Positions 21,401 through 63,125 of a stretch of 64,000 bases of DNA are shown here, piece after piece. This DNA comes from Meghimatium bilineatum (lineage: Eukaryota; Mollusca; Gastropoda; Stylommatophora; Philomycidae), in contig CM067306.1 in NCBI GenBank assembly GCA_034231615.1, positions 40,463,101 through 40,527,100 of the forward strand. The letters run 5' to 3'. The translations under genes and the position numbers were made by a program. Each line of letters begins with the position of its first letter. The first letter of the stretch is position 1. The notes beneath the pieces were generated by a model. It ran no database searches. It was not told the DNA's origin and saw only the letters and a program-made list of their open reading frames with translations.

Positions 21401-24400
21401 AAAAGTATTCAGCTTATTCCCTAACTTTCCTTAGGTACCGTCTGTGATATGCTTGGAAAGAAGATAGTGGCCCTATTCTTTGCATTCTGAACTAGAAGTC
21501 CAGGCTCTATTACTTAATGTATTTATATTGCTTAGAAAATCACTACAGCTAACAAAATATGCTCAGTTGATGAATCCTGAATAGGATATGCTACCAATTA
21601 TTTCCAATCAATTTTATGTATGTTTCATTGTTCAGAAAAAAACCCATGCCATCTTAGAAATGGTGAGTGCTCCAACTTCTGCTTTGTGGTACCCATTGTG
21701 AGTGGATTGAATCAGATAGGTAGACATTGTGGATGTCCTTATGGCATGAAGTTGGGTAGAGATCAACGCACATGCGAATCAAATCCTGATGAGATCCATG
21801 TGACAACTTGCCAGTCTGGGTTCTTTCAATGCAAAAATGGCAGATGCATACCAAGTTCGTATCGATGTGACAGAGACAATGACTGCCTTGATCAATCAGA
21901 TGAGATGGATTGTCCAACAGGTTCGTATATTGAAATTTAAACTGTTATTTTAACATTACACAATAAATATTTGTGTAATTCTATTCTAGTCCACAAATTG
22001 AAGATTTTTCAGCAAAGAAAAGGTAATCAGGTTGACTTCTGCTCAAAAGGCCTAGAGGATTGACTTCATTGCATTCGAATTACCTAATATGTACTCTTCC
22101 ATCTCAACAAAGTGGCATGCCACCTGAAAGTACCACAGGGATCTGTGAAAAAAAATCTGCTTCATAAACAGGATGTTGTTACATATGAACTCTAGAGCAC
22201 ATATCACACATCAATATATGCAGAATTCAATTCTTTATTTATATGTGCAAAAATTATTTAAATATCTTTAACAGCAAAAATGTTATCATGATTTCAAAAC
22301 AGTCACCAACTATTATGTAACATTTCCAAAAATAATTCAGGGGCAGGACAGAAATTACATAAATATAAACATAGCGTTCTACAGGTTAAGTGCTCCCAAA
22401 ACTGACATAGAGTCTGTAAAAATGACTATGTCTAATGGTTTTTGTTCCATTAGATCAAACTGTTGGTGTATTGCCGTAAATTACAGTGTCTAAGTCGAGA
22501 AGTTTTGGACATTTATCCAAAATTGATTTAAGGGTCACAGCCTATAAATGAGTACAAAACAATTTTTTTAAAATATTACATCAAACCGAGTAACAGAGGA
22601 AAAAATGTACCTGGAGCAGTAGGCCTACAAACAGTCAACTCCTTCCACGTTGGAATTCTACTGCAAAATGACCATTTGTTAGACGAAATCCGTGATGTCA
22701 CGATTAGTAGGCCTACCACCAATTTCCTCCTCGTCCGAAACAAGGGGTAAAGTCGAGCAAGATATAGCCAGAGAAACAAGTGGGAGAGTAACATCACGAG
22801 ATGGACATGTTATAGTCTAGCATAGTGTACCACCATGACAAGAGACAGGGGATGTTGGATGTCTGTTGCACTCAACCTTTGTTGCAGAGACGGTACTTGA
22901 TGATGGTGTCCGAAAAACTACCTAGGCTAAATAAAGAAACTTCTATGCCACATACTTTCCACGTCACAATGTTTCAACGGTTTACCGGTACTGGTAAACA
23001 CAAATAGGAAGCATGATGTTTTATAAATGTTACAGTATGCACAAACTGTGACTATCTACTATGCTATAAGATCTGTGTGTAGAATATGTAAATATGATCT
23101 CAAAGGCTGATTTTGATTATTTCTGTGCATGTCGCCGATCAGCCTTATCTAATTTTGATATACGACTCCAAGAATGTAAATGGTCTCGCACAAAAACACC
23201 ATTTCTTAAAGTCTTTCGTGTTTTGTGTTTACAAAAAAATCTGTGTTTGAGGGAAGGGGGAGCAACCGAAATCAATAGTGAAAGACATCTTCTTTGTCCC
23301 TCTCGCTTTTGAAAAGTGGTTCCAAACATGTCATTCTGCCATAATTGATACCCATAGGTTAATTTCACAATCCTCTCTCATGTTTATTACTGTATATTTC
23401 CTGAAAGGTGAACATACGGTAACAAAGCTCAAAGTCTTGGTATCTCATAAAAACAAATGGTGTCCGTTTCGCATCATTTTTTTCATCATATTGTTTCCTG
23501 CTTAGACTTTATTGTCTGCTGTAATGTCATCTGAACCCTACTGCACATTAATTAGTAATTACTATTCACTACCCAGTAGGACACCAAACATAAACAATGC
23601 GTCCAGGAAAGTACAGTCTATTGTTCCACAGTGGTGCTACAGTCTATAGACGTTGTTCATGAGTGCAGGTTATTTAAAAAAACAAGGAAGTTTATGCATT
23701 TGAGTTAACACTGTTGTGGCCAGCATTTCTGATTGAATAGAATAGCTAGGAACAATATCTGATTGTTAAGGAAGGCAACGCTGTATTATCTCTGATGTAT
23801 TATTCCCAGAATACAATGGCCCTATTCATTCCTTCATTCATTCAGGTGAGTGGGGCAAATGAAAGGAATGCCCTTGCATCTTACAGTTGCTAAAGTTTGT
23901 GTTAATTTCCATTTAGCATGTTCATTCATTACAGGATAATAACATGATTACACAGTATTATTACTAGCATTGTTACATTATTTCTATGTATATCTATAGA
24001 CGGATTTTAGACTTTCGACACTTTTGGGATGTCAAAATCACCTCCTCGACTTATTATCGGATGGACTAATACACAGTAATTTACAGTAACTCAATGGTTG
24101 TCTTGATGGCCTCAGCCTCTGCTTCATATTTTGAGCAATTTCCACGACAAAATTATCAGAACTTGTAGGCAAATCCAGCTGATGACAACTGCCCTCCTTC
24201 CATATTCTATTAGGAAATGAGAGAAGAATATGCAGTAAGGATGAGCTGTTAACTAATTTAATCTTCTCCAGATTATAAGAACTGCTAAATGTGTCAGTAA
24301 ATATATTTATATTATAAATGCAACCGTTATACAAGATTACCATTTCACAGTATTTGCTAATCTTCTTCACTATAGATACAACCTGCCAATCTAGCAAGTT

Positions 24401-27400
24401 CAAGTGTGGTAATGGCAAGTGTGTCAGCCAGACCTGGGTGTGTGATGGAGACAATGATTGTGGAGACATGACTGATGAAAATAACTGTTGTAAGTTTTTA
24501 GCTGAAACACTTTCTAAGAACATAGTAGTTATATAAAAAATATATATATCTGGCTGTATTTTGCTTCTTTCATCATTTGCATAGCACGCAAACAAATTCC
24601 AGATCTTGTCACAATGTAACCACTTTGATGACATTTGATGACCCAATCTTTAAGATCTCTTTCCAATTCGGGAAATAGCGCACACCTTGTTGAACATTTA
24701 AAAAATCTTTTTCATTTCTTCAAGTGACATTTTATTTTTCCTCCACTCCCATATTTGTTTCTCATCAACACAAAAATGACGAGCTGCTGCACAATTATTG
24801 CTTCCTTCAACATAACTGACTACTTTCAGTTTAAATGATGAATCATAAGCAGATCTCTTCCTTTTACTTTAAACTATTTCACGATTCATTTTCAAGATTA
24901 TGGTATAATGTTATTTCTTACGTTGGTTATTTATAAACATTTAACGGATGAGTGTGCATTGTATCTGCACAGAAGCATACAGGTAAGTTAGCGCTCCCTA
25001 TGTTATGTCAGAATAAGACAGTTACCTGTTGTGCGCGGTCAAAATTAGCAGCATACACATTGTCGTGTATGCGATTATCATTGAATAATAAGCTTACCCG
25101 TTCATAAACTGACCCCCCTCCCCCGCTTTTTCCATTAAAATGTTTCCCCCAAAAAGTTGGCTTTAGGTCAAGTGTATATGGTGTTGTTTTTTTCGTGCAT
25201 TGATTTCATCCTATTCTTGTTATTCACCTGCTAAATCAATGATAATTGACACAGAAGAGATATTACTAGTTTAAATGTTTAAGAAATGAAGCAGTCACAT
25301 ATTTCTGCTCACCAATTAAACCTGTATTTTCTTATAATATTCTTATTAGCACAGTCACACAAAAAACAAATGTCTCAACAGCATTAAGAAGAAAATGATG
25401 GACTTAATTGGACATGTACTAAGAATGGATTAAAACACACTGCCAACTACAAGCAGTAAAATGGGTACCAGATGGCAAAAGAAAAAGAGGAAGATCAAGA
25501 GATACTCTTCACAGAATAAGCATGAAAGATGGCATGACTTTGGGTCTCAACATCATGCAAGAATTACACTCAGTAGCATCATATCACTCAAACTGGAGAG
25601 CTCTGGTTTCTTCCCTATTCGGCACTGAAGGAGCAAAATATTCTTATAATTCTTTCACTTTGAATGACACATTTTATTGCTTATGAGATGGGATTCAAGA
25701 TGTATAACCAAAGATTTAATGTCTCTCTCCAGCGGCTAAAACCTGCAATTCTAGAGAATTCCACTGTAATAACAGTTTATGTATAAGTCTGTCCCTCAAA
25801 TGTGACACAGACAATGACTGCAACGATGGCTCAGATGAAGGCGAATTTTGTGGTAGGTGATGTTGTTGTTGTCAATATCCAACTGCTGCTGAGTTGATCT
25901 ACTTTTGGTAGCTCAATGTTATTCTTAAAAAAGTTCTTGATCTTAAAAAGTGTGGTAGGAAATACATTCTAAATTCTTCTTATTAGAGCAGTTAGAGAAA
26001 TTGGTGAAATTTGAGTTTGTATTGATCTTGCAAGGATTTGCATTATTTAGCATTCAAGACCAATTTCAAGATTGAGTCCTGGTTGCGCCCAAGTCATCAT
26101 CATAGAAAAGAAACAATCTCAGCAACAGAAGATATTTTTACTTAGATAGCAATACATTTTATTTTGTGTTGTGCTGTATTTTTATGGTTATTTGCTGACA
26201 TTTTTCTACAAGATAGGTTAGCCAGCTGCAGACTAACCCACACTTAGTCATGTCTGTGGACATTCATGATAGGTTACAGTGATAGTATTCTTTGTTTTTG
26301 CTTGCCTTTCTTGCCCTGTAACAGTGGGAGATTTTGATACATGGTCATATTTTAAAATCTGGACAATGGATAAACTATAAAATTTAGAAATTGTAAAACA
26401 CAACGATTCACTGAAGGAAAAAGCAAATCAAGAATTTGTTCCAGTTTTAATAAAAAAGAGTATGTTAAAATTAGACCAGCCATGTACTGGATGAAAACAG
26501 ACTTCCTAAACAAACCTATATGTGAAAAACATAGGGAAAAAGAAAAGTAGGCCACCCAAAATAAACTCTATGCAGAATAATCAACAGATACAAAAAAATA
26601 TTGGGTATAAGAAATAAACAAGAACTACAGCTACTTACAACAAGGTGCTCAACATGGAAAGAAATGACTACTGTCTTATGTGTCATAATAAAATTGAAGA
26701 TTTACAACCTGTTTTTTAAATCATTAACTGTTGCAGCTCAGTGGATAGTGCATCGCCTTCCTAGTTTGGTAGTCCAGGATAGATTTTTCAGTTGAACTTG
26801 AACATTATTAGATCAGAAACAGATGGAATATGTTGACAGCCTAAGATAATGGGTATCATATCTTCTAGAAAAGTAGAGGCAATGGATATAATTCTGACTA
26901 CATGATCTCTAAGTATACTCTTGGTCAAACTGGCAGATACTGCACATTTCCCATTAATTAGTTGCAGGGAGGGATGTTGTAGTTGTGTGATAAAAGCAGT
27001 ATGCTCTTGATGTCGCCATGTCTCTTGCACAGGGTTAGTTTTTCAATTTGCTTTCTGACAGAAAAACCCAGATCTCACTGGGAGTTGAACCCTGAACGTC
27101 ACAGATGTGAGAACAATGCTCTAACATCTCAGCCATGCATAACACACCATTGTTAAATTAAAGCATTAGGCTAAACACTATATTCCCCTATACATCTTGA
27201 TGCTGTTACTGTTACTACTATTACTACTACCAACTTCTACTTCCAAACATTCAATTTCCAGGTGAACACACATGCCAAAGACATTACTTCCAGTGTGATG
27301 ATCGCAGATGTATCCCAGAAACAAGAGTATGTGATGGCGGTAATGACTGCTATGATGGCACAGATGAAAGAGATTGCCCTCCTCTAAACTGCACAGGATC

Positions 27401-30400: not shown

Positions 30401-33400
30401 TTAAAACATACAAGGAATTTAAATAAAATGGATGTGTCTCACAAAAAAATAGTGTGGTGAAAGGTAGCTGAAGTGTGATATTATATAATAAGCCTGTAAT
30501 AAACAAAAATTGGAAACAATACAAAGCAGACGACATAATCTTAAAAGTAACATTGTATTACTTATTCTTATTGATCTGCTCATGGGCCTTCTAGTTCATG
30601 GTGCATAGAAGCCCGCTTTCTTTTTAGGCTTGTCATAGGAAAGCTAGGGAAACACTGACAACCTGTCACCTGTGAAAACATCATAGTTGCCATTACATTT
30701 CTTGTCTCTACTATTTATTTTTATCTTCTGTCAAATAAAAGATTATTAGCCTCAATCACACTGCATCAAAATTGCATAATTTTCCCCTGCCACTGAATTT
30801 TTATTGTGATTTTACATGATATTTATGGAGGGTATTAGGAAAAATCAATACATTTTTTGGGATCTTTTGTATTATTTTGTTCATAGAAATGAAGAAATGG
30901 TTGCTGAATATAATGATGTACGTTTTGCTGGTGTGTGATAAAAAGAAAAATGAAAAAAAAAATCTCACATAAGTGACTCAACTATTCTTGTTTGACATAT
31001 TCACTGCTGGTTATTATGAAATGTTACTAAATGTTTAGGCCTATTCTATTTCTGATGTTATTTCATAACTAAACTAACATGTTCAGATTATTGTTGTGAA
31101 AACAAATGAACCATGTCGATCTCATTAACTATATCAGCTAGGCCTAATGGTCCTATGACTTCAGAAAAGTTGTGAAGCCAGAAATAATTGTAACATGAAG
31201 AGGTATGGTGAACTACATCCATGATTCCTTTATTAGACACTACAAATAACTGCTGTCCCAACTCTCAGCTATCTGGGGCTGCGAAATGATGAGTGGAAAA
31301 AGTTGCATCCATAAAACCAAGAAACTCTTCATCATCAGAATATGAATCACAGAAATTCCCCAGAAATGGCTGCCGTTTATAGATTATATACAGCTGAAAA
31401 ATATTTAACTTAAATTCCAAGATAGGACCTAATGTTTTGAGAACTGACAGGTGATTAATATGTTTTATTTAGATTGCTGTATTACCCAAATGAATGACGT
31501 TTAATTACAATCGTGATTTCCATGTTGAACGATGAGCAGCGCTGATAGCAACTTAAAGTACTTTGAGTCTGGTGCAAATTTGAGCTGACAGCATGTTAAA
31601 GATTAATGACCTGAGCTTATTGTACAAAGTTTACTTTCATATTAATAGAAGTTCCAGGTAATTTTAATGACAGTTGAACATCCCTATTCATTCAGTATCT
31701 TAAAGTAGTCTCTTATCCTACCTTGATTTTATAGTTTTATGTACTATTGTGAGTGTCATAGACTAAGTGTCTTGTGTTCCTTATATTTAAGTTGTTATTT
31801 CATGTGTCTTTTGGTAGTTATTGTGTCAGACTTTCAGTCCATGCTTTGGAAGTAGCAGAGTAGATGGCTGCACCATGAATGGACAACATACGTAGATACC
31901 TCTGCCCTTCAGGAACTTTTAATTATTTACTGCCCAGATCATGCTGAAGTATGAGGAAATGAGCAAATTATATGCTTGGCTGCAAAGGCACTTGTGCTGG
32001 ACATTTTGATATGGAAAGAGATGAGATCTTGAAAGTGATATTGAATAGCTTAGTGGAGGATAATACTGCACCGGACAAATTAATAGGACAGAGATTTCAA
32101 GAATTTGGGATCAAGCATGGGACCATCAGGAATTTGGGATCAAGCATGGGACCAGCAGGAATTTGGAATAAAGCATGGGACCATCAGGAATTTGGGATCA
32201 AGCATGGGGTCAGCAGGAATTTAGGATCAAGCATGGGGCCAGCAGGAATTTGGGATCAAGCATGGGACCATCAGGAATTTGGGATCAGGCATGGGACCAG
32301 CAGGAATTTGGGATCAGGCATGGGACCAGCAGGAAATGGGGAAAGTTTGGCACATGAATACAATTTTGTAAATCCTATCTATCTATTCATTAAACCCTTG
32401 ATTGCCTTTCAGTGTCAGGGTTAGAAGAGTTATCTGGAGATGGCCCTCGTGTGTGCTGAGTATACTGTGAAATTTGTTGCCTCTTTTATTTCGATGGTCC
32501 ATCGTTTTCGTGGTCGGCCTCTAGGTCTGCTTTTACTGTATCTGTATAGCATAGCTTGCTGTGGTATGCTGTCTGGTGGTAGTTCGCTGATGTGTGCAAA
32601 CCATTTTATTTGTTGGCTCTTAAAGTATTCCAAGATTGTGGCAGTGTCGGTTATTTGTCTGTCATCATTTCTCATTCTGATAAAGCTAGAGTAAATCCAA
32701 CACATTAAAATCCAGCATGATTATACATAGGCATATTTATCCATGTAGCACCAAAGAGCACGCTTGACAGCTGTCACAAAGACCAGTCAAGATGCAATGA
32801 TGGAGGTTGTATCCCTAGAGCCTGGAAGTGTGATGGACAGATAGATTGTGATGATGGATCTGATGAGGGTGTATTATGCCGTAAGTCTTATTTACATAAT
32901 AATTTAAGTTTATTGCAGCTGGAATGTGCCTGTATCTGCACTTACCGGGTATGTTGCAAGGCATGTTATTTTGTCTGTACATTTTGGGCCACAGTGTTAA
33001 AACGGCCAGTGTACTAGTAACTATCATATAGTTTTTATTTCTCTGTATTCATTCTCAAAGTCTTACTGGTTAGCAGAATATACACCAGAGAACAGATGCA
33101 TTGTGTCATGGTTTACAGTTTCCTTGTGATATCTGTCCCTTTTGACATGAAACATCTAACTTTAGCTTCTTTGTGATCACTTTGACTTATCAGATGGAGC
33201 AGTCATTCACCCTAAAACCTCCTTAGTCACCTCTTGCAACATATATGGCAGGTCACAGTGTTGTTCTCCTTTCAGAGCAACACATGGATGGCTTGGATAG
33301 TTGGTGATTTTTTTTTATACCATGTTACCACAGACTCTCTCTATCTTACTGTTCCATTCCACAAGAGAAACTGATGCATACTGAGAAATGTAAAGCAGGT

Positions 33401-34055
33401 AAATGCAAATAAAGTAAATAGGTTACTATATCAATATAAAATATAGAAAATAACAATAAATAAAAGGAACAAACACAACAGTCAACGTGTCTGTCCAATT
33501 GGGGACCTTTAAAGACAACCATAACGAATATAAACAAAATGGATTTCTCCCACCAGGAAATCAACAAAAAGCTACACCAGATCCAGTGCAATACAATTCC
33601 AACAAGTGCATATCGATGCGTTCAATATGTCTAAATTATGAAATTCCCAAAGATGAAAGATGCAGAACTAAAGAAAAGGGGACACCAAATAGCACTGCCA
33701 AGAAGCCAAGAATGGGGGGGGGGTGGCAAGTGGGCAACGGGAGACAAAAGGGGACAGGACAGAGAAAGACAATGCACGTAGGAGCGGGAGGGGGGCACAA
33801 ATAGACACAGGGAACACAGAAATGTGCAAAGAAGAATAGCATTTGACAGCGCAGGATAGACAATAAAAATATACACACATCAAAACACAATCACGAACCA
33901 AACATGCACACATTCTACCGGACAAACACAGATAACTATAAATATAAGCACATATACATACAAACATCCAGACTTATACAAAAGTATATACTAATTTCAC
34001 AGTACACATTGAAACATAGACACATACATGTACATAGGTACCTGCACACACAACA

Positions 34056-34102
<47 letters not shown>

Positions 34103-37100
34103 CACACACACACACACAGATATATATACATACACACACATATATATATATACACACACATATACATATATATATATACATACACACACATATACATATA
34201 TATACATATATATATATACATATATATATACATATACACATATATATATATATATATACATACACACACACACACATATATATATATACACACACACAAA
34301 TGTGGATATATATACACACAAATGAGCATAACAATATATATATACAAACATACATACAAATACAAGTATACTAGGAACAAACATAAGTATATATCTAACA
34401 TGATAAATACATAGATATAAGAAAGATACCCACACAACATGCACAAGCATTTTTATACCCATTCGTTCACATGAAGATATTCACATGTATTACTCTAACA
34501 CAAGAATATGCACACATGCAGATGCGAGACCCAAAGTAACTGTTTGGATACACAAGACCATGTAAAATAATATGCATATACAAATTCATACATATGTGTG
34601 TATGGGTACCTTCTTCTTCTTCAGCGTTCATTCTCAAACTCCCACTGGATTTCTCTTGCAACAGGACAATGATCCTACAAGATTTCCAGTTGAATGTAGT
34701 CCAGAGAATGGAAATGCGTTGTGTTGCCGTTTTATTTGGACCAATGGTCCAACACATCCATCTTTGGCAGGTATGGGTACCAAACTAATTAAAAAAATTA
34801 AAATTTGATTACACAAAAATAAGGTACATTAATAAAATTGACAGAATGGAATACGATATAAACAATAAACAACAGAAATAACAAAGACAAATTACAAATA
34901 CACGGAAATATAACAAAAACAAAGCTGATGAGCGTGCACATAAAGAAACAATTTCAAAGTACAGAGGGATATGGCTACCAAATAATTAGGAGTAGGCCCC
35001 TACAATATAATAAGAATAGGGGGCAGAGGCCCCTTGTCCGGTAGAATGTGTGCATGTTTGGTTCGTGATTGTGTTTTGATGTATGTATATTTTTGTTGTC
35101 TATCCTGCGCTGTCAAATGCTATTCTTCTTTGCACATTTCTGTGTTCCCTGTGTCTATTTGTGCTCCCCCCCCCCCCCTCGCTCCTACGTGCATTGTCTT
35201 TCTCTGTCCTGTCCCCTTTTGTCTCCCGTTGCCCACTTGCAACCCCCCTCCCCGTTCTTGACAGTGCTATTTGGTGTCCCCTTTTCTTTAGTTCTGCATC
35301 TTTCATCTTTGGGAATTTCATAATTTAGACATATTGAACGCATCGATATGCACTTGTTGGAATTGTATTGCACTGGATCTGGTGTAGCTTTTTGTTGATT
35401 TCCTGGTGGGAGAAATCCATTTTGTTTATATTCGTTATGGTTTTTTGTTCTTAACTGTTTTTGTTGTCTTTAAAGGTCCCCAATTGGACAGACACATTAA
35501 CTGTTGTGTTTGTTCCTTTTATTTATTGTTATTTTCTATATTTTATTATTTTATATTGATATAGTAACCTATTTACTTTATTTGCATTTACCTCTATTTG
35601 TATGGTTACTGCTGCACTTCCTTTTTGTCGGTCATCCTCCGATATTTGGGTTATTTATATTAGAAATGTAAAGCATGAAATTCATATACAAATTATTGAA
35701 GAATAATAGTTTCTGCTGTTTCAAAGGATAATGAGGTACAAGAAACAAATCAAATAATGTTGCAAATTCATTGATGAGATTAAAATATCTTTATGAGGCA
35801 CACTACCTTTAACAGTAAATACTCATCCACCTTTTTTATATCAAACTATATAAACATTACAAATGAGTAGATGTAAAAGTTCAAGTAATCCTGTTGCTGT
35901 CACCTCTGATGTGTGTTTATGATGTATATCATGATTGGTTATTCTTAACCTCCACCTTCACAGCTCCAGTGACCTGCAATGCCAACCGGTTCCGTTGTAC
36001 CAATGGACATTGTATCTTCCGTGGATGGGTCTGTGATGGAGATGATGACTGTGGTGATAACTCTGATGAAGATTCCGCTCTGACTTGTGGTAATATTTGT
36101 TGACATCTCTGTGATATTAGTGAGATTTTATTCATATTAAGGATATAGTTTTCTATTTAGTTTATAATATGTGCCAGATCATAGATGTGGAAAAGTTAAA
36201 ACTCTGAAGAGTACAACACATTCCTACCTTTTAAAACTATATTTCCAGATATTATTGATCATATATCAGAATTTATGGCAAAGAGTAGTCAAAGTGATCC
36301 AATTTATGGCAAAAAGTAGGCAAAGTGATCCAATTTATGGCAAAGAGTAGACAAAGTGATCCAATTTATGGCAAAGAGTAGAGAAAATGATTCAGAAAAG
36401 TGTTACTAACTGCATTTAACTTTTTTGTGACTTGATTTTTCTTAGGTTTTGGACCAAATTTTCAGTAGTGAAAAAAGTGCATGTCTTTCCCATTTAATCA
36501 ATTCATAACCTAATACAGTGGAACTCTATAGTGCATCCTTTTATAAGAAATTTCCCTTTGTAACAACACTTTTAAAAATCCCCAATTATATTTATTCTAT
36601 ATTGTACATACTGTATATAGCAAATTTCTGCTATTACATACACATTTTGTTGGTCTGGATAAAGTTTTTATAACTGGATTGGACTGTATTACTAACTGGG
36701 ATACATATTGTATATGATTGTAGAGAGAAATAGTTACAGAAAGTGAACATATGAGTAAATTGTTGAAATTTTTAATGAGGTGGATAACTATAAAACAATA
36801 ATGATATAGGTTAAATAGGTTTTACAAAGAGCCTACAGCAGAACAAATTAATGTTTCGACCAGTAGGTCTTTATCAAATTAGGGAAAAGAAAAAAAAGAG
36901 AACACCAATATAGAAGGACAGTACATGAAATTAAGTTGTCTTCTATAATCAAACACATTTTTTTTTTGGGGGGGAGGGGGAAAGTAATTGTAGTAATTAT
37001 TACTAAGTGCAGAATTTTATGTAACAATACAGATATTTGTGGGTCTAATAGAAAGTGACCCTATAATAAGTTGGCATGTAGACCCTATGAGTGTTACTAT

Positions 37101-40100: not shown

Positions 40101-43100
40101 ATTTCTGACTTGATATGTTTGTTTGAAGATCATATAGATATGAATTCACAGCTTTATTGTGCTGCAAACTGTGCTTCTTCTTATTCAGAGTTCATTCTCA
40201 AACTCCCACTGGTTCTGTCCCTTAATTGGACAATGGTCCTTTTAGATTTCCAGCAGAATGTTGTCCAGAGAATAGAAATGCGCTGTGTTGCCGTTTTATG
40301 TGTGCCAATGGCCTGACACCTCCGTCTTTGGTTGGCAAACTGTAAAACATAAAGTTTTATTTTAGATCCTGCCCTCAAAGAAAAATAAACAAATTATCTT
40401 CAGAAGCTGTCACAGTGAGCATAATCCATGAAGAATTTCCAGAACAATCGTGGATACATGCATTTACTTATGGATTAGCTACAAATGCAATCAGAAATTG
40501 AGGAGCTGATATTTTTATAACATATCCTGACCATTGACCTGAAATAAAGTCCATCCCCACAGGAAATTTCTGCTCTAACAACAATGTTGAGGATCAAGCA
40601 ATATAACATGATACTTGACACTGTCACTGAATGTCAACACGTGTTAACCTTCACAGATTTACTATCAGTTTTTCAGGCTCTCATGGGTAGTAAACTACAA
40701 TACTTAAGAGATAAACTAAACAACAAAGAAAGTAAAAAAAACTAAAACTGTGCTATAGTGGGTACCATCACACTGTGGTGTCCCAGGAAATGATAGGGCA
40801 GATGAGTTGGCCAAAGAGGGAGGAGAGTGTATGCAGAAAGACAATGAAGTCACATATCAAGAAAAGAAGAGGGCAATACAAACCATCAGAAGTGAACATA
40901 GCATGATAAAAGATGTCAACCTCTATCTAAATTGACAGGAACATGTCACCATACTTCGCCTGAGGACAGAACACAACAGGCTGAATGAACATATACTGTC
41001 AAAGACGGATGTGTCGGGCCATTGGCGACAACACATTTCCATTTTCTGAACTACATCCTGCTGGAAATCTGGTTGGGACCATTGTACTGTTACAAGAGAG
41101 ATCCAGTGGGAGTTTGAGAATGAACGCTGAAGAAGAAGAAGAAACACATGCACAGGATGCGACTGTGTAGCACACACTTATGGAACAGATGAACAGACCT
41201 CTGAGCACATTCTGCAGAACTGTCCCCAGTATGAACGATTGAGAGTGATGTACTGGCTCAAAGGTGCAGCCCTGCAAACAAAGATATATGGAACCAAAGA
41301 AGAGCTTCAGACAATGGTGGAGCATGAGTCTTGTCTAACGGTGTAGACATCAAGTAGTAAACTTAATACAGAAAAAAAGAAAAATCCAGCCTTAGACTTA
41401 CTGACTACATCTTCAATGATAGGAAAGCATAGACTAATAAATAGTGTGACCAGATTTTGGAAATGAAAACCAGAACACCCACTAATAATACAAAATTGAC
41501 TAAAACATAAACCAGAATAGCCAATGTATTTAGGTTAAAGTACAGTAGTTTTTGATGCAAACATTATAAAATGTTAACTCAACTTTGTTCTTAACAATCA
41601 AGAATTTGTTGACTTTTCAGATAAAGTTTGTTTAAATGTTAACATGTATATACTTTCAGTACAAATACAACCAATTAACTGCTCATATGAGAAATATATT
41701 GATTTTAAAAAAATTGAACATTATTGCATCAGAGTAAGATTTCTTGGGATACTGGACAAATATTTTCACACCGGTTCTGTCCCAGTAAAACTAGGATGTC
41801 TGGTCACCCTTTTGATAAGCCATCATTAGTGTCATTCATCATCAGAATAATAAATTATTCTCGATTTTATTATAGAAAGAATTGATTAGTATAGACATCT
41901 TGTTTCTTCCAGATGCAAACGAGTGTGATCCTCCAGGCTTATGCAGCCAATTATGTACCAACATCAAAGGTTCCTACAAATGTTCATGTGTGGATGGCTA
42001 CATCCTTCTCTCTGACAAGAAGACATGCAAGGTGGTCAGAAGTATGTTGTTTTATTTGCCCAGTCAGTGTGTTCTGTTCTGTTGTTCTGTACATATTGAA
42101 GTCTCTCGTGTACAGTGAATAAGTAAACTGTTGTCATCTCAATGTTGTTGTAATTAGTGATCTCAATGAAACATTCTAGAGCCTTTATTGCCAAAGAAGC
42201 ACATCAATCATGAACTGATGAAGGGGTCATATGATTATGACCCTTGGACAAGACACAGTCATCTCCATAAAAAATGCCAGTCTCTATGGCAAAAGAAAAT
42301 ATATCAATCATGAACCAATGAGAAGGTCATGTTTAGTTTTAGGTTTGACCTGCAGGTCATAGTTCATCATCCAAATCAAAGCCAGATCCTTGTTGTGGAG
42401 ATGGGACATATATCAACCAAAAGAGGCTGAAAACTAAGACTAGCCAGCCCTGATATAATCAAGCAAGACAACAGTCTGCCCTTGCAAAATACAGATACTG
42501 AAGATAAAGGCAACCAGCCACGAGCATAGATATCAACTTATATTTCCATAAATCCGTATTTTTAACAATTTACCGTTAAATTCCATGTATAACCCGAGAA
42601 TTTTTGGACAAAAAACAGAGATGACTTCATACTCCTCGACTTATATTCGAGAGTAAGATCAAATTTTTTTAAAATTATGTCCAAATCACAGTAAAAAAGG
42701 AGAAAAACACTTTAAAAAAAATTCCAGTCACATGTCCCGATATATTAAGCCAGGATAAAATGACTAGGGCTCACCAGCAATCTAGAGCGTACTTACCATA
42801 ATGCTAGGCCTCTAATTACTTTAATTTCTATATATCATACAATATTTCCTTCGAAATCTCCGATATTTCTTGATAAAAACTCACTTACTAGGTCTATATA
42901 CGTTATTTCAGAAACGCCACCATTTTTTTAGCATAATTTCCCGGAAACGCTATTTTTAGCAAAGGGTATTACCGGTTTTTTTTAACCGTTTATAGTACAT
43001 ATATTTCTATCATAAAGGTTTCAATTGATCATCGAAATTGGTCAGAAAAGTATACCAGTATCTGATGTTATTTATTGACCAAAATACGGTAATGGTCTGT

Positions 43101-49100: not shown

Positions 49101-52100
49101 CTAACTATCCATCTATCTATTTACATAATCATATTAAATCCCTATCTATCCATCTCTCCTTTCACTCCCTGTGGAGCATATATCATCTACACAATAATTG
49201 AAGCATATCCTGTAATATCACATGATTTTTCTGTTATTGTTGAATTTCTAAAACAAAAACATATGCCTGACATTGGTTTTAGCTTTTTGTTAATTTTATA
49301 AATCGATGTTGATCCACTCTGGGCAAATCCATAGGTGCTCAGTCTCTCCCAGCACATGATGAAGGCTGGGCATGCTGATGGTATCCCATAGCATGCTGGG
49401 TTACATACACATCTCAGATACGCCCTCAATGGCCCTTTTCTGCTCACCCTAGGGGTTATTCCAAATTGTTTAAGTCACAATATCATATGTGTGACGCATG
49501 ACAGAGAGGTTACAACATTGGTCTCAAACCCGTGAGGTCCAGAGTTTGATCCCCGGTAAAGACTGGTTTTTTTTTCTGTCTGAGTAAATGAAAAAACTCA
49601 CCATGAACATGATGTGGTGACATCAAGAGCATACAGCCTTTATCAAACAAGTCACTCAAATACTCCCTGTAACAGTACTGGAAAAATACAGTATGACAGA
49701 TATTATATCCACTTCTACTGTCCTCATTTAGAAAGTGTTCATTTAGAGATCTTAATATGTGATCCTTGTCTATTATTAATTCCCCTACCATTGGTGCTTT
49801 CAAAGCCAATGTGTCAGCTCGTTCATTGCCATAGACTCTCACATGTTCAGGACAATCATCAGGTGCCATGTTGGCTGGTGTAGGCGGTCATGGCTCTCCA
49901 CAGCTCTCTGTCCACAGTATTATGTATCAAGGTCATTGTTGTTTCCTTGCCGTGCCAGACTTTCAAACTGTCTAATATTTTCTCACGTTGTCGCCCTCTG
50001 TCTCTGTTGTCTTCAATTTTGCCTGTTGTGACTATTTTCTCTAAACCTGTCTGTCTGATGAAGTGGCCAAAAAAAGAAGATTGCCTTTTTCTTATATTGT
50101 TGATTAAGGTCTGTTTCGCATCTGAATCTTTCAACACCTCTACATTAGTTTTTCTGGCAGTCCACGTTATTCTCAGCATTCTTCTGTAGAACCACATCTC
50201 TGTTGCCTTTAATTTCCCACTTTCAAGTGTGTTTACTGTTCAAGATTCGCATCCATATGTTAGTATAGGGGTTATATAGCACTGCAGAACTTACTCTCTT
50301 TCTCACCTCTAATGACAAGGTCATATTACACAGTATATTTTTCATTTTTCTGAATGTTCTTTTTGCCTGTCCTATTCTGCATCTTGTTTCTGTTGAACTT
50401 CTTCCATCTGCTGTAATCATTTCAGGACAACAAATCCATAAAATTATCTAAAGATCAAAATGTGCAATACACTCCATCCACTCATGCATGAGCAACTCAT
50501 TCTCAATCTTTCTAAGCATGGACTTAGGACTTAGTCCATGGTATTCTCAGCATTCTTCTGTAGAACCACATCTCTGCTGCCTCTAATTTCCCACTTTCCT
50601 GTTTGTTTATTGTCCAAGACTCACATCCATATGTTAGTATAGGAATTATTTATTATATTAATGCATGTAATTTTAAACTACAATGAACCCGCTGAATCCA
50701 CACATTTCGCTTCCAATATTCTATTCAACTAACACTGAGGAAAAAAAAGATTAATAAGCTGTACAATTATGTAGATTCTCCACATGCTGAAAATTTTTTT
50801 CTCCATGCTTGATTTTACAATCATCAAAATCATAACTATTAATGGTTGTAGGGATGCCACTTTGGAAGCAACATAACATTTCCCACTTGCCTCTCAGTTC
50901 TCATCTCTATGTATGAGTGTGAGATCCTATGAATCTTAATCCTGACCAACCCATAATATTATCAACTCATAATTTTCTTTGACCTCCTCTTATCTTGCAT
51001 CTTCCTCAACTCTTCCTTTGCAGGACAATTTTGGAAAGGGAATATCTCACTATATACCCAAATCACACAAATTCACAAAGTTTCGCAGCTGACAAGAAAT
51101 GTTCTTGTTGACGTGCAAGTGCATTATTTTGTTTATCAAGTGTATATTGGTTTATTGTATAATATAAAAGGAAAGTTTAGACCACGATTTGAGTAAATAC
51201 TCAGGCATTATGATATTTCTGAGATGAAAAATTCATGCCTAGTGTGAGATATTTTTGAGGATCTTTCTGAGATGAAAAATTCATGCAGATTGAGGTATTT
51301 TTGAGGGTGTTTCTGAGATGAAAAATTCATGCAAAGTGTGAGGTGAGGTAGATTTGAGGATGTTTCTGAGATGAAAAATTCATGCAAAGTGTGAGGTAGA
51401 TTTGAGGATGTTTCTGAGATGAAAAATTCATGCAGATTGAGGTATTTTTGAGGGTGTTTCTGAGATGAAAAATTCATGCAAAGTGTGAGGTAGATTTGAG
51501 GATGTTTCTAAGATGAACAAATATAAGCTAGATTTATATTTGCTATGACAAACTAAAACATTGTGTCCTCTTTCTGTTTAAGCTCTCTGATCTTAACTCT
51601 TGTTATAATCTTTCACCTGTTGTATATAGTGTTAAATAGATGGCCAAACAATCAATATTTTGCCATTTTTATCTTAGGGTTCGTTACCTTTTCTGGTCAG
51701 ATTGGGGACAGAATCCACGGATTGAACGGTCAGGCCTAGATGGTACTGGTCGTACTCTTCTTGTTTCTGAAAAACTGTTTTGGCCTAATGCACTAACCAT
51801 TGACTACCCCAACCAGAGGCTATACTTTGCTGATGCACGTATGGATTTCATTGAATTCTGTAACTATGATGGTTCTGGAAGACACCAAGTGTTTGCTAAT
51901 GACCATGTAAGTAGCTAGTTACAAGTAGAAATAAGTGCATCAAAGACCTATGTTTGAAGTTCTTCAAAGACAAAGTAGCAAGTAAAAATAAATGCTGCAT
52001 AGACTGCCCGAAAATCTCTCTCAAGCAGTGCAGAATTGATCCAACTTACCAAAAATCTTTCGCTGCTGCATGTTTTCCTGTGAAGGAGTGCGGGGAGGCT

Positions 52101-57778: not shown

Positions 57779-58277
57779 GTATGTATGGCACACTTAGCAA
57801 GAGTACAATTTACAGTGAATGTTTTTATTTATTTAGTATATCATTACACTCAGGGCAGTCTTCTTCTGCAAGTCGTGAAGGGAAAGTATGCTAATGGCTC
57901 CATAACTAGTTAGTCCACTCAATTTCAGAGCAAAACTGCATGAGATATTTAAATGACGATTATGATCATGTGTTTTTTTTTCTTAAATCACAAGTTAGCT
58001 TCTCTCAGTATCTAACTTGAAGATTATACATGACAGCATCATTTTTTTTATAAAATTTATTTGTATGGCTCAGTGAAATTAAATAGCAATTACAAGGTTT
58101 TAGCATCAATCTTTTTAAAGCCACATATATTTGTAGATTTTTTATAAATTACTTCTTTAGTGCAGAACAATTTCCAGGCCTGTCAGAGCTATACCAAAAA
58201 TGGGATTCTGATAATGTGTCTCTTCTGATTATCTAAATAAGATACATACAGATGTCTGGACTGGTGGCAAATCCATT
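57779..58277. other. Intronic sequence without recognisable feature
   Basis: AT-rich start of the last intron; no element recognised. Confidence 0.5.
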
Positions 58278-58599
58278 TTCAGATTAGGAGATATAGTAAT
58301 GCAAAATGATGTAAAAAGGTTACTAAAACACTTACCTAGCCTATTAATAAAAATATATTTTTAAGAAAAAAAACAAAAAACATACAATAAAACTAAACAG
58401 GACAATTCTCAACGTATCGGCTCAAATTGAACCTTTTTCAAGAGACAAACAACAGAAAACGACAAAATAAAAAAATAAATAGATGTCTATATTTCATCAA
58501 GCCCTCGTCTCCATAATAGCGCAGGGATGGCAACGCATCTAGTCAAGGTGAAAATGCGTGCATTCATTATAAACAAACCGAAAGTGGGAAATTAGAGAC

Positions 58600-58860
58600 A
58601 CTATAGATGAGTGCAAGAATAATAAAAGAAAAAGATAAGAAAAATACCCCTTTTGTCACTCTATCAGACAGGCAGGTTTTAAGAACATAGTCACAACAGG
58701 CACGACTGAAGGGAACAGAGACAGATGGGGACGTGAGAAAATATTCATGTGACAACCTAGCAAGGCTTGGAAACAACGATCCTGATAACAATACTGTGAA
58801 CAGAGAACCATGGTCACCTACGCCAACAAGAATGGCATATGACAATGATAGATGAGTAAT
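58600..58860 (+). mobile_element. Family A LINE fragment inside the left PLE arm
   Basis: GTGGGAAATTAGAGACACTA, TTTGTCACTCTATCAGACAG, AGGCACGACTGAAGGGAACA and GAACCATGGTCACCTACGCC spell the worn family A 3' end (GNLETL, TLSDRQVLRT, ARLKGTETD, REPWSPTPT). The mirror copy lies at 60305-60565 in the right arm, so the capture preceded arm duplication. Confidence 0.75.
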
Positions 58861-59185
58861 GATGAGGTTGTGTGGTGGTGGGGTGAGTGGGTTTGGGGAA
58901 GGAAGGATAGAAGAAGAATCAACATTTGAAAACGCATGGAATGAATGTGAAACCAAATATAGACATAAACATATATATAAAACCAAACCTAAACATACAT
59001 AGAAATGTAAACACACACCAAGAGTCAAGAAATAAACACATAACAAGATGGACACAGATGTGTGAAGGATACCCACACAAAATGCACAGGCATGTAAATG
59101 TATCCACACACAGGAAAGGGCTCACACCAGAATAGGTATACACATTGACACAGAATGGAGATACGTGAAATGATATACAGAATGG

Positions 59186-59300
59186 AAATGATTAGCCACT
59201 GGGGAGTCACGATGATTCGTGATATCTCTCAGATGTTCGGACATCTGAGAGATATCACGAATCATCGTGACTCGATGATCTCCCCAGTGGCTAATCATTT
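59186..59300. repeat. Palindrome at the centre of PLE composite 2
   Basis: Left arm AAATGATTAGCCACTGGGGA plus a 31-bp stem starting GTCACGATGATTCG; right arm is the reverse complement except for 9 extra bases next to the GGGGA block. The loop is TCGG at 59237-59240. The right half is coding (the SPVANHF start of the remnant), so the left half is an inverted copy of coding sequence. Confidence 0.95.
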
Positions 59301-59460
59301 TAACTGCCCGTCACATCATGGTAGCTCTGATGTCTCTGTAACCGGTTTGTTACGTTGTTATACCGGTGACCGGCAACGTCAGTCCTTGGAATATCGTCTC
59401 ATTTGTCATATGGGAGTCTTGCAACCAAACGGAATGAACATTAATCACCGTTTTGTTTGA
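59242..59460 (+). pseudogene. PLE C-terminal endonuclease-region coding remnant
   Basis: The frame ends with MISPVANHFNCPSHHGSSDV, SVTGLLRCYTGDRQRQSLEY and RLICHMGVLQPNGMNINHRF followed by TGA. The pattern HFN..GH...D..V.GL, RxxxE..LI, L.P.G.N matches the extreme C-terminus of Penelope-like ORFs after the GIY-YIG nuclease, as I remember that family. RT and the nuclease core are absent, so it is a 5'-truncated copy. Confidence 0.65.
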
Positions 59461-60304
59461 GTTACCCACCTTTTCTTTATACCCTCTACTCCCGTATTGC
59501 ACTGATTCTTGTAATTATTTGTCTTTGTACACTTTCGTGAATAATTATTATTTTTGTGTTTGCCGTTCTTCTATATAATTCCTTTATGTCTTCTTTCGTT
59601 TGTGTATGTCAATATGTGATTATTTTGTACTCTGCCATTTTGTTATTGTTAAATCATTTACATATTTAGATTTTGATTTCCTCGTTTTTATTGCAGTTGT
59701 CTCTTCGATGGGTGCCTACACATATATAGTTATTTGTATATGCATTTCGTTTTACATGGTTCTATGTATCCACACAATTACTTTGGGCCACACATTTGTA
59801 TGTATACATATGCAGTTGTTATAGCATTATCTTTATGTGAACGAACGTTTATATTTACATTAATATATGTATATGTTTCTATGTGTATGAATGTTCATGT
59901 TATTATTTATACGAGAAAGTGTTTATGTGCATGAATGTTCATATTTGTGTATACATATATATATGTATATTTATGTGAGCGCTTTTTTATGTTAATGCAC
60001 GTATCTCCATTCTGTGTCAATGTGTATACCTATTCTGGTGTGAGCCCTTTCCTGTGTGTGGATACATTTACATGCCTGTGCATTTTGTGTGGGTATCCTT
60101 CACACATCTGTGTCCATCTTGTTATGTGTTTATTTCTTGACTCTTGGTGTGTGTTTACATTTCTATGTATGTTTAGGTTTGGTTTTATATATATGTTTAT
60201 GTCTATATTTGGTTTCACATTCATTCCATGCGTTTTCAAATGTTGATTCTTCTTCTATCCTTCCTTCCCCAAACCCACTCACCCCACCACCACACAACCT
60301 CATC

Positions 60305-60565
60305 ATTACTCATCTATCATTGTCATATGCCATTCTTGTTGGCGTAGGTGACCATGGTTCTCTGTTCACAGTATTGTTATCAGGATCGTTGTTTCCAAGC
60401 CTTGCTAGGTTGTCACATGAATATTTTCTCACGTCCCCATCTGTCTCTGTTCCCTTCAGTCGTGCCTGTTGTGACTATGTTCTTAAAACCTGCCTGTCTG
60501 ATAGAGTGACAAAAGGGGTATTTTTCTTATCTTTTTCTTTTATTATTCTTGCACTCATCTATAGT
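60305..60565 (-). mobile_element. Family A LINE fragment inside the right PLE arm
   Basis: Exact inverted counterpart of 58600-58860. In the orientation of the PLE coding remnant the captured LINE is antisense and lies in the 3' untranslated region. Confidence 0.75.
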
Positions 60566-61009
60566 GTCTCTAATTTCCCACTTTCGGTTTGTTTATAATG
60601 AATGCACGCATTTTCACCTTGACTAGATGCGTTGCCATCCCTGCGCTATTATGGAGACGAGGGCTTGATGAAATATAGACATCTATTTATTTTTTTATTT
60701 TGTCGTTTTCTGTTGTTTGTCTCTTGAAAAAGGTTCAATTTGAGCCGATACGTTGAGAATTGTCCTGTTTAGTTTTATTGTATGTTTTTTGTTTTTTTTC
60801 TTAAAAATATATTTTTATTAATAGGCTAGGTAAGTGTTTTAGTAACCTTTTTACATCATTTTGCATTACTATTTGTTCATTAGGTTACTGCGGCACCATC
60901 CACTTTGTCGGACACCCTCTGGCCATTTGGTTATTCAGATTAGGAGATAGTCATCATGTGTTAAAAAAAGAATTTTTGAATTATGAAATGATATTAAGCT
61001 GTGAACGAA

Positions 61010-61062
61010 GTATCATCAGGTGCCATGCTGACTAGCGTAGATGATCATGGCTCTCCACAGCT
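61010..61062 (-). mobile_element. Family A LINE 3' stub, antisense
   Basis: CATCAGGTGCCATGCTGACT, GTAGATGATCATGGCTCTCC, ACAGCTC is the reverse complement of the family A 3' end. It is cut by the S3 repeat that starts at about 61063. Confidence 0.75.
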
Positions 61063-61235
61063 CTTCTTCTTCTTCAGCGTTCGCTCTCAAATAACCACAA
61101 CGAATATTTCGTGTGATTTTCGCCAGGAAGCGTGAAGTACGTTGTGCTGCAAGTTCCACAGTAAAACTGTGATTATTTGCACCCTGGTTGGCCACTTGTG
61201 GTCAGGACATCCGAGGTCCAGCACATCCATTTTCG
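61063..61235 (+). mobile_element. GAA/TTC-ended short repeat (S3 subtype)
   Basis: TTCTTCTTCTTCAGCGTTCG then CAAATAACCACAACGAATAT, GTACGTTGTGCTGCAAGTTC and TTGGCCACTTGTGGTCAGG. It is the inverse of the copy at 18375-18515. It is joined to the LINE stub, which it probably interrupted. Confidence 0.7.
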
Positions 61236-61410
61236 TCATTCCTTTATTTCGGGTTTGGTCCCTAGTCCCTGACAGCCTGTGTATCTGTCGCCAGGCACGC
61301 TTGTGTGAAGTGCCTCTTCGCCAAGACGCTTGTCGAGCGCGTCTATCTGGCACGATGTGCCCCTCCATCTATAAACCAATCTCGTGCAATTGGACGAACA
61401 CTGCCTGTGT

Positions 61411-62450
61411 CCATTGCGTACTGAACCTTTTCTCATCCGCGAGCCTGGTTCCGTATGAGGAAGAACTCGCCAGAAGAGTTGGACACTGGCTCGTTCGCCC
61501 TCCTACTTGTGGCGTCATTCACAGACTTCGTTAACCCCTCGTACAAGTTTGAGTCTCACACCACGCGTTTGAGAGCAAGGCGTTCTCGAGCTGAGCAGCC
61601 ATGTCCCAATAGCGCCTGAGCCCATTAGGTACTGAACCCTTTCTCTCTGCAAGTGTATTTCCTGTATAGGAAAGCTTTACAATAAAGTTGGGCCAGGGCT
61701 AAATCGTTTTCCCTTTTGTGCCTGAGCCCATCAGGTACTGAACCCTTTCTCTCTGCAAGTGTTTTTCCGGTATAGGAAATCTTGACATTAGAGTTGGGCC
61801 AGGACTGCTATCGTTGTCCCCTTCTTGCCTAAACCCATTGGGTTCGGAACCCTTTCTCTTCGCGAGCATATTTTCGGTATAGGAAGGCTCGACATTAGAG
61901 TTGGTTTAGGTCTTTTTGCTTTTCCGAGCGCCCACAATTGGGTCAGGATCTCTGCTTATAAGGATCACAGGTAACTAGAAGCTCGTCTCAAGCTAACAGA
62001 GCTTATAGTTCCCCTAAGAACTTTTCACTTTTAATTTGCATTTCGCGCTGCCCTCTGGCGCTGTTCTGCTCTTTCATTGTGTCATTGTACTCATTATGAC
62101 ATATATTTGTTTCTCTCCCTGCAACCCCCTTTACATGTCTTTTACTCTGGCCACCCCTCCAATGTTCTGACTGGACTAACAGGCGTCAATGTATGTCGAC
62201 AGTGTCGCTGTATGTGGTGATGCAAATGGTGGCGGAGATATTGTCTGTCTCTTTTGCAGTCAAATCTCTTTCCATCTGCTTCCTCCACATTCTCGGACAC
62301 GATCCCCAAATGATTTGGCCAGAATCAGCTCGAGCTGCTGTTTTCTGTTACCAGGGTGCACCACGAAGAGGTACATTTGGGATCTTGGTTATCTGCTAAC
62401 ACTGGGTCCGCCTAGGGCAATGCGTTCCCTTTGCACCCCTCCACATCTCT
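61411..62450 (+). repeat. Dispersed repeat, copy 2, with about 106-bp internal tandem units
   Basis: Units begin near 61621 (CCCATTAGGTACTGAACCCT), 61727 (CCCATCAGGTACTGAACC) and 61834 (CCCATTGGGTTCGGAACC), each with CTCTCTGCAAGTGT-like and GTATAGGAA blocks; a fourth, worn, begins near 61411, two periods earlier. 62285-62450 matches 8518-8670. The 61.2-62.1 kb stretch is GC-richer and has more CG than its surroundings. Confidence 0.72.
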
Positions 62451-63125
62451 TTATCTCCAGTATTATGTAGCAAGATCATTGTTGTTTCCCTGCTATACCA
62501 GGTTGTTAAACTGTCTAAAATTTTCGCCCATTGTAGCCCTCTGTCTCTGTTGCCTTCAATTTTACTTGTTGTGACTATGTTCTCCAAACTCCTTTGTCTC
62601 ATAAAGTGGCTAAAAGATGAATATTGTCTTTTTCTTGTATTATTGATTAAGGTCTGTTTCTCATTTGACTCTTTCAACACCTCCACATTAGTTTTCCTGG
62701 CAGTCCATTGTATTCTCAGCATTCTTCTGTAGAACCACATGCTTGTGGTTCTAATGACAAAGTCATATGACACAATTTTTTTTTACTTTTTCTGAATGTT
62801 GTTTTTGCCTGCCCTATTCTGCTTCTATTCTGCCCCTATACTGTTGAACTTCTTCCATCTGCTTTAATCGTTGTACTTAAATATTTGAATTGGTGGACAT
62901 GCATTAATACTATATCTTTCACTTTTATCTTGAAAGTTGTGGTATTTTGTTTATTTGAAATAACTATTACTTATGTTTTCTTGATATTTAGGAAGAGGCA
63001 TTTCTCTTTACTTTCTTTGACTACTACATTAATTAAATCTTGAAGGTCTTCCTCACTTTTGGCAATTACAACAGTGTCATCCACATATCTCAAATTATTT
63101 ATGTTATGTCCTCCCACTGATATTC
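62450..63125 (-). mobile_element. Family A LINE fragment, antisense
   Basis: The minus strand encodes NLRYVDDTVVIAKSEEDLQD (YADD box changed to YVDD), then [58 protein letters not shown] and RGLQWAKILDSLTTWYS. The 3' end is missing. Confidence 0.82.

Follow-up and report, generated by a model that had tools for sequence, protein, structure and literature searches.

The insertion at positions 58278-60949 of the stretch of Meghimatium bilineatum DNA analysed here (64,000 nucleotides, C9:40463101-40527100, hereafter the window) is a typical copy of a young Penelope-like family, whose usual product is a head-to-head inverted dimer with a tail on one side. Inverted dimers are themselves of a known kind; what makes this one valuable is the record left by its family, from which a testable rule for Penelope integration can be drawn, namely that the two ends of a dimer are divided between an inner and an outer reverse-transcription start site. 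The rule seems new: such a division was not found in the literature searched, with subscription papers mostly outside its scope, nor in PMC11167929 or the accessible part of PMC3846280. An earlier sequence-only reading had rightly recognised the dimer and its one-sided tail; only the emphasis shifts, both being usual in the family and not peculiar to this copy.

The same reading had described a 16-bp direct repeat around the whole dimer, a tail on the right only, and a left part that is an inverted copy of the right with about 700 bp missing. All three points hold, with the values given below, where TSD denotes target-site duplication.

58278-58293, no strand: left TSD, 16 bp, TTCAGATTAGGAGATA, identical 16/16 to the right TSD
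58293-59167, minus: 3' part of the inner-site, tail-less inverted arm, identical 875/875 to 59998-60872, ending at the inner start site
59168-59185, minus: 18-bp filler at the 697-bp internal deletion of the left arm
59186-59240, minus: head of the left arm, a GIY-YIG remnant in the family state without the 9-bp insertion
59204-59273, no strand: fold-back centre, a perfect stem of 33 bp closed by a 4-nt loop (59237-59240)
59239-59460, plus: C-terminal end of the Penelope frame in the right arm, 73 aa and stop, matching the end of the 719-aa frame of the tandem array L019
59241-60933, plus: outer-site arm including the tail
59273-59282, plus: private 9-bp insertion of the right arm, with ambiguous exact edges; it pairs with the preceding ATCATCG in a local hairpin
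60395-60547, minus: antisense C-terminus remnant of a non-LTR reverse-transcriptase frame in the 3' untranslated region (tblastn E=1e-8 to window 49862-50239)
60863-60876, plus: inner reverse-transcription start site, GCATTAC/TATTTGT with the start between, placed by start offsets in 24 insertions and by 21 of 40 ends in a tail-free sample
60873-60933, plus: tail, 61 bp, between the inner and outer start sites, right side only
60925-60933, plus: outer start site, ending ...TTTGGTTA here, where the L019 template continues TTTATATTTGT
60934-60949, no strand: right TSD, 16 bp, TTCAGATTAGGAGATA, identical 16/16 to the left TSD

The outermost base of the left arm is the counterpart of 60872, and the roughly 697 bp that this arm lacks correspond to positions 2356-3052 in the L009 reference. 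With up to three mismatches allowed, TTCAGATTAGGAGATA has one further match in the window (53165, two mismatches), 1.36 being expected by chance. Since the TSD bounds the entire dimer, the earlier proposal that the whole palindromic unit was inserted in one event is supported. Apart from a 9-bp gap in their alignment, the head piece 59186-59236 repeats 59241-59300 in inverted orientation. These extra 9 bp sit in the right arm, not the left, and are private to the window copy, which spans 1693 bp where the 39 other listed places span 1683-1687 bp (query 2-1694); the L019 frame reads HRDSPVANHF in this region. The coding remnant noticed earlier is indeed present and can now be narrowed to the C-terminal end of the Penelope frame's GIY-YIG part; relative to the end of the L019 frame, it has G for E at its first residue, which lies at the fold-back centre, a 3-residue insertion, and C for S. 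Folded as RNA, the 3' end is unremarkable (z -1.6). The antisense non-LTR piece recurs in the other arm at 58618-58770, with related DNA at 49862-50239, 11870-12117 and 62458-62644, and has no match in a second dimer of the window (33384-35675).

The host genome (1.61 Gb, 32 contigs) was searched with 59240-60933, the query that the sequence-only reading had proposed for collecting copies and comparing their boundaries and TSDs. The best 40 of 2689 first-look candidates comprised the window copy and 39 others, at least 99% over query 2-1694. Twenty of these 39 were taken with their flanks (L009-L028, of which L019 runs past its stretch), and seven opposite-strand pairs (two among the remaining 19) and six inner-ended copies, found by a tail-free query, were added. 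The 34 insertions thus read, window included, come from one genome and are among its best-scoring copies, which is counted against the two-ended model set out below. They comprise 27 head-to-head inverted dimers, the tandem array L019 and six single-armed insertions (L015, L016, L027, L077, L080 and L081), the last likewise counted against that model. The sequence-only reading had looked to copies without the inverted dimer for its refutation, and the opposite was found. Seven of the 27 dimers were selected for being pairs; without them dimers make up 20/27, split into 17/21 for the window plus the tail-selected copies and 3/6 for the inner-ended ones.

An exact TSD of 12-16 bp bounds 26 of the 27 dimers. 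When the left flank of one copy was compared with the right flank of another, matches of at least 12 bp were found in 0/702 comparisons (longest 10), and the family TSDs are beyond chance. The remaining dimer, L076, has 7 exact bases, or 12/13 with one mismatch by eye; the 13-bp match of L069 sits in a tandemly repeated target. Among single-armed insertions the exact matches are 9 bp in L015, 12 in L027, 12 in L077, 10 in L080 and 9 in L081, the shorter ones being less secure, while L016 has no exact match and 13/14 by eye. An 875-bp pair of identical arms is what an assembly artefact, or gene conversion of a single-copy insertion that turned palindromic later in place, could yield. Such an origin is hardly credible, given that exact TSDs bound the whole dimer in nearly all cases, at different loci and with different arm lengths, and that flank, too, should have been duplicated by an artefact. 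The position of the TSDs around the entire dimer, and the 3' sequence common to its arms, led to the rejection of post-insertion inversion, twin priming and assembly artefact alike. A fold-back or TIR DNA transposon was also discarded; it requires the same terminal sequence at both ends, and in the 27 dimers the tail is at one end only.

The ends of the dimers follow a simple division. In 26/27 one end lies at the inner site, GCATTAC/TATTTGT, and the other at the outer site, GGTTATTTA/TATTTGT (slash marking the start), about 67 nt apart centre to centre; this was checked base by base in 24 dimers and via match coordinates in L069 and L076. Both sites carry the heptamer TATTTGT, as read from the L019 template. 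In the exception, L010, one end is outer and the other lies even further in, 87 nt inward of the inner site, still without tail. Dimers with both ends at the same site number 0/27. Because the query of the first set includes the tail and thereby selects for main arms with an outer end, the census was repeated with the tail-free query 60400-60860. The best 40 of 1287 candidates all end at one or the other site (inner in 21, outer in 19), and 8/8 opposite-strand pairs are mixed; the eight (window and L069-L075) overlap the 27 dimers, and several of the 40 ends belong to the first set. L048 was scored as outer, since its tail is present with a 1-nt deletion that stopped the script. Starts scatter from -4 to +5 nt round the inner centre and from -3 to +6 round the outer, and the tail measures 62-74 nt by these offsets (24 insertions). 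A suspected outer/outer pair on C5 is not a counter-example, because its left arm extends beyond the outer site in the manner of a tandem array.

The identity of the element was assessed mainly on L019, whose tandem units have a period of 4402 bp. Its 719-aa frame matches RVT_1 (E=0.0015, residues 206-374) and then GIY-YIG (E=0.0015, residues 623-660), both weak matches below the Pfam curated cut-off; YIDD and YIGET..R are presumably the motifs of the two domains. The 73-aa window remnant has no match in Pfam or solved structures, and no relative appeared in IMG/VR or bacterial and archaeal genome scans. When the 719-aa frame was compared with solved structures by phmmer, the two matches obtained (E 0.11 and 0.78) were meaningless. 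Hammerhead ribozymes in the pLTR occur in several Penelope-like elements (PLEs) and are not obligatory. Rfam, which divergent short forms may escape, gave no hammerhead in window 57800-61500 (E<=5) or L019 (E<=1); its seven matches in the former and six in the latter are weak, of miRNA type and far under gathering scores, being hairpins or chance. Judged by its sequence features, the element is classed as a canonical PLE: reverse transcriptase and GIY-YIG share one frame, units occur in tandem, an optional tail is carried at one 3' end (19/40 ends in the tail-free sample), and inverted terminal copies are present in 27/34 insertions, within an exact TSD in 26 of the 27, all features published for canonical PLEs (PMC11167929; accessible part of PMC3846280). 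The earlier assignment to this group is thereby upheld.

The window insertion is probably a 5'-truncated canonical PLE copy, integrated by two-ended target-primed reverse transcription with fold-back or end joining. As the observed TSDs suggest, the element enzyme would cut both target strands about 13 bp apart, and from the end positions it would appear that each target 3' end primes cDNA on sense element RNA, one starting at the inner site and the other at the outer site downstream. The tail would be confined to one arm because it is the stretch between the two starts, and the arms would be inverted, with their 3' ends outward, because the two cDNAs grow toward each other. In about half of the dimers the long cDNA would then fold back near its 3' end and be copied, giving near-equal heads and a hairpin centre; in the others, the junctions suggest that the two cDNA ends are simply joined. 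It may further be proposed that an asymmetric particle on one RNA assigns the inner or outer TATTTGT start obligatorily to each strand, so that the tail would be the footprint of the second start and palindromes the default product of sense RNA, without an antisense template; the chances of this extension seem to us evenly balanced.

Target priming at both ends agrees with the bases at the boundaries. In 24 insertions, the target matches the RNA beyond the start over a mean of 2.0 nt at the inner end (0.78 permuted) and 1.42 nt at the outer end (0.71 permuted), an excess reached in 0/5000 permutations at each end. Very short arms also occur (42 nt, tail only, in L079; 30 nt from the inner site in L014), as expected if each cut side would start its own cDNA and one stopped early. 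These observations bear on another proposal, made for Adineta vaga Penelope, by which the palindrome is formed before integration through self-priming on antisense RNA. Palindromic head junctions speak for it, and the accessible part of the 2013 paper favoured an antisense template for head-to-head palindromes, which it could not prove (PMC3846280). From one folded RNA, however, neither outermost ends that both lie at preferred start sites with excess target match nor unequal heads with arms as short as 30 and 42 nt would be expected, and the proposal appears improbable here. The 2013 argument, as far as that part of the paper gives it, falls away if fold-back occurs in the first cDNA and not in the RNA.

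Two further boundaries deserve record. At 7693-7706 of L027 (oriented), a 14-nt inner-start-like piece follows the outer end (by eye), as if copying had started at the inner site and then jumped to the tail. In L016 (oriented, about 5798-5819), the filler between left flank and head has an inverted flank copy by eye (CAGTGTATG / CATACACTG), as would result from fold-back of the target end.

Under two-ended priming the relation between the two arms has still to be explained. The arm heads lie at most 25 nt apart in element coordinates in 13/27 dimers, where permutation gives a mean of 1.5 and a maximum of 8 (20000 permutations), which means that the heads do not vary independently. Of the other 14 dimers, 10 have a shorter inner arm and 4 a shorter outer arm, the tail-selected set favouring the first kind. 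Loops copied from the inner-site cDNA were found in L021 (8 nt, perfect 1921-bp stem) and L072 (20 nt, perfect 349-bp stem), and in L072 the last 4 nt of the cDNA match the site where copying resumes. One-arm loop copying was thus shown by script in 2/13 symmetric dimers, a proportion counted against fold-back; in the other 11, window included, the string test failed for both arms, mostly through loop filler. By eye, the filler of L011, L074 and L078 is self-copied or repeated, and the 4-nt loop of the window points to the inner cDNA as the primary strand. The perfect 1921-bp inverted repeat of L021 (oriented) survives in the assembly, which is remarkable given its expected instability.

Sub-family variants could be compared between arms in 16 dimers. 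They agree at 93/97 comparable sites; the 4 disagreements contrast with 28 expected and were matched in 0/2000 permutations, and therefore a single template lineage underlies both arms. The arms share 28 variants (11 private to one insertion, 17 not) against 41 between-arm differences, counts that do not discriminate fold-back from two copies of one RNA. A variant of two-ended priming would place two reverse transcriptases in tandem on the same RNA, one from the inner and one from the outer start, running to the same block or 5' end, with short inverted matches joining the antisense ends and no long fold-back copying. It accounts jointly for mixed starts, shared sub-family variants and near-equal heads, and is possible, if rather doubtful, since the loops of L072 and L021 are wholly copies of the inner cDNA within perfect stems and the junctions of L011 and L074 look self-copied by eye. 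Fold-back copying of the first cDNA, as preferred here, needs a second step in the window, where the right arm (the presumed copy) has 697 bp that the left arm (the presumed template) lacks; this loss and the 9-bp gain on the right may be local errors of copying close to the palindrome, made at the same time or later.

An older, diverged dimer lies at 33384-35675 of the window, again with the tail on the right only.

33384-33397, no strand: left TSD, 14 bp, AGAAATGTAAAGCA, read in the sequence
33398-33925, minus: inner-site inverted arm, 90.1% over 567 nt to 35034-35593, seeming to continue to about 35033
35034-35661, plus: outer-site arm, with its tail at 35594-35661
35662-35675, no strand: right TSD, 14 bp, AGAAATGTAAAGCA, read in the sequence

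It shares about 62% identity with the first dimer across the last 250 bp. In its diverged sub-family, judged from match coordinates only and with a query that includes the tail, 7/8 listed partners stop at query 181-191, the position of the inner site (184 in the window copy). The remaining one, C11:40287656 (query 209-247), resembles an outer/outer dimer or a tail fragment and is counted against the two-ended model. A short repeat flanked on both sides by the 11-bp GTATGGGTACC is nested in this dimer at 34599-34781, with related copies near 17544, 40174 and 41000. Elsewhere in the window, a tail-less Penelope 3' fragment at 17755-17977 (87% identical) ends exactly at the left-arm end (60872), and non-LTR reverse-transcriptase remnants occur at 9240-10121 on the minus strand (RVT_1, E=1.7e-19) and 56371-57321 on the plus strand (E=9.5e-8). 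LDL-receptor class A, EGF and class B repeats appear in exon-like stretches (e.g., 24318-24533, 41876-42115 and 51640-51915), and the window seems to lie within a large animal gene of LDL-receptor type, the elements falling between exons.

PLEs are relatives of telomerase. Near-identical young insertions with exact boundaries constitute an in-vivo record of their starts, cuts and junctions, in which the tail marks the start site at which each target strand was primed. Such insertions also plant long near-perfect palindromes in the genome, in this case one between exons of an LDL-receptor-type gene, and these palindromic repeats could give double-stranded RNA.

Several known systems invite comparison. 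In L1 twin priming, the inversion also arises during target-primed reverse transcription and inverts a 5' segment without duplicating it; unlike this, 875 bp are present here in both arms, so that the same 3' sequence is duplicated. Penelope of Drosophila virilis likewise has direct or inverted terminal repeats. An optional tail, 30-40 bp long, is also a feature of that element, as cited in PMC11167929. For Penelope of Adineta vaga (Pen2a_Av and others), the accessible part of PMC3846280 already reports inverted arms, an optional tail, TSDs and palindromic junctions, and the suggestion of the sequence-only reading that the dimer is consistent with known PLE terminal-repeat behaviour is in line with that account. 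Compared with the A. vaga elements as described there, the present family has a tail of 62-74 nt and TSDs of 12-16 bp, its inverted arm is often almost as long as the main arm, and it is numerous enough to reveal different start sites at the two ends.

A further parallel is Poseidon of Anolis carolinensis (PAc), whose enzyme cleaves and extends both target strands in vitro from two reverse-transcription start sites that bound the tail, the later integration steps being left unvalidated in that study (PMC11167929). Tandem units, two starts bounding the tail, and the cutting and extension of both strands are common to Poseidon and, on the reading preferred here, to the present family, in which no hammerhead was found by Rfam. 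The in vitro work saw no strand difference in start and no homology between start and target, which is counted against the two-ended model (PMC11167929). In contrast, each dimer here generally carries one of each start, and the mean target match of 1-2 nt is slightly greater than the Anolis enzyme showed in vitro.
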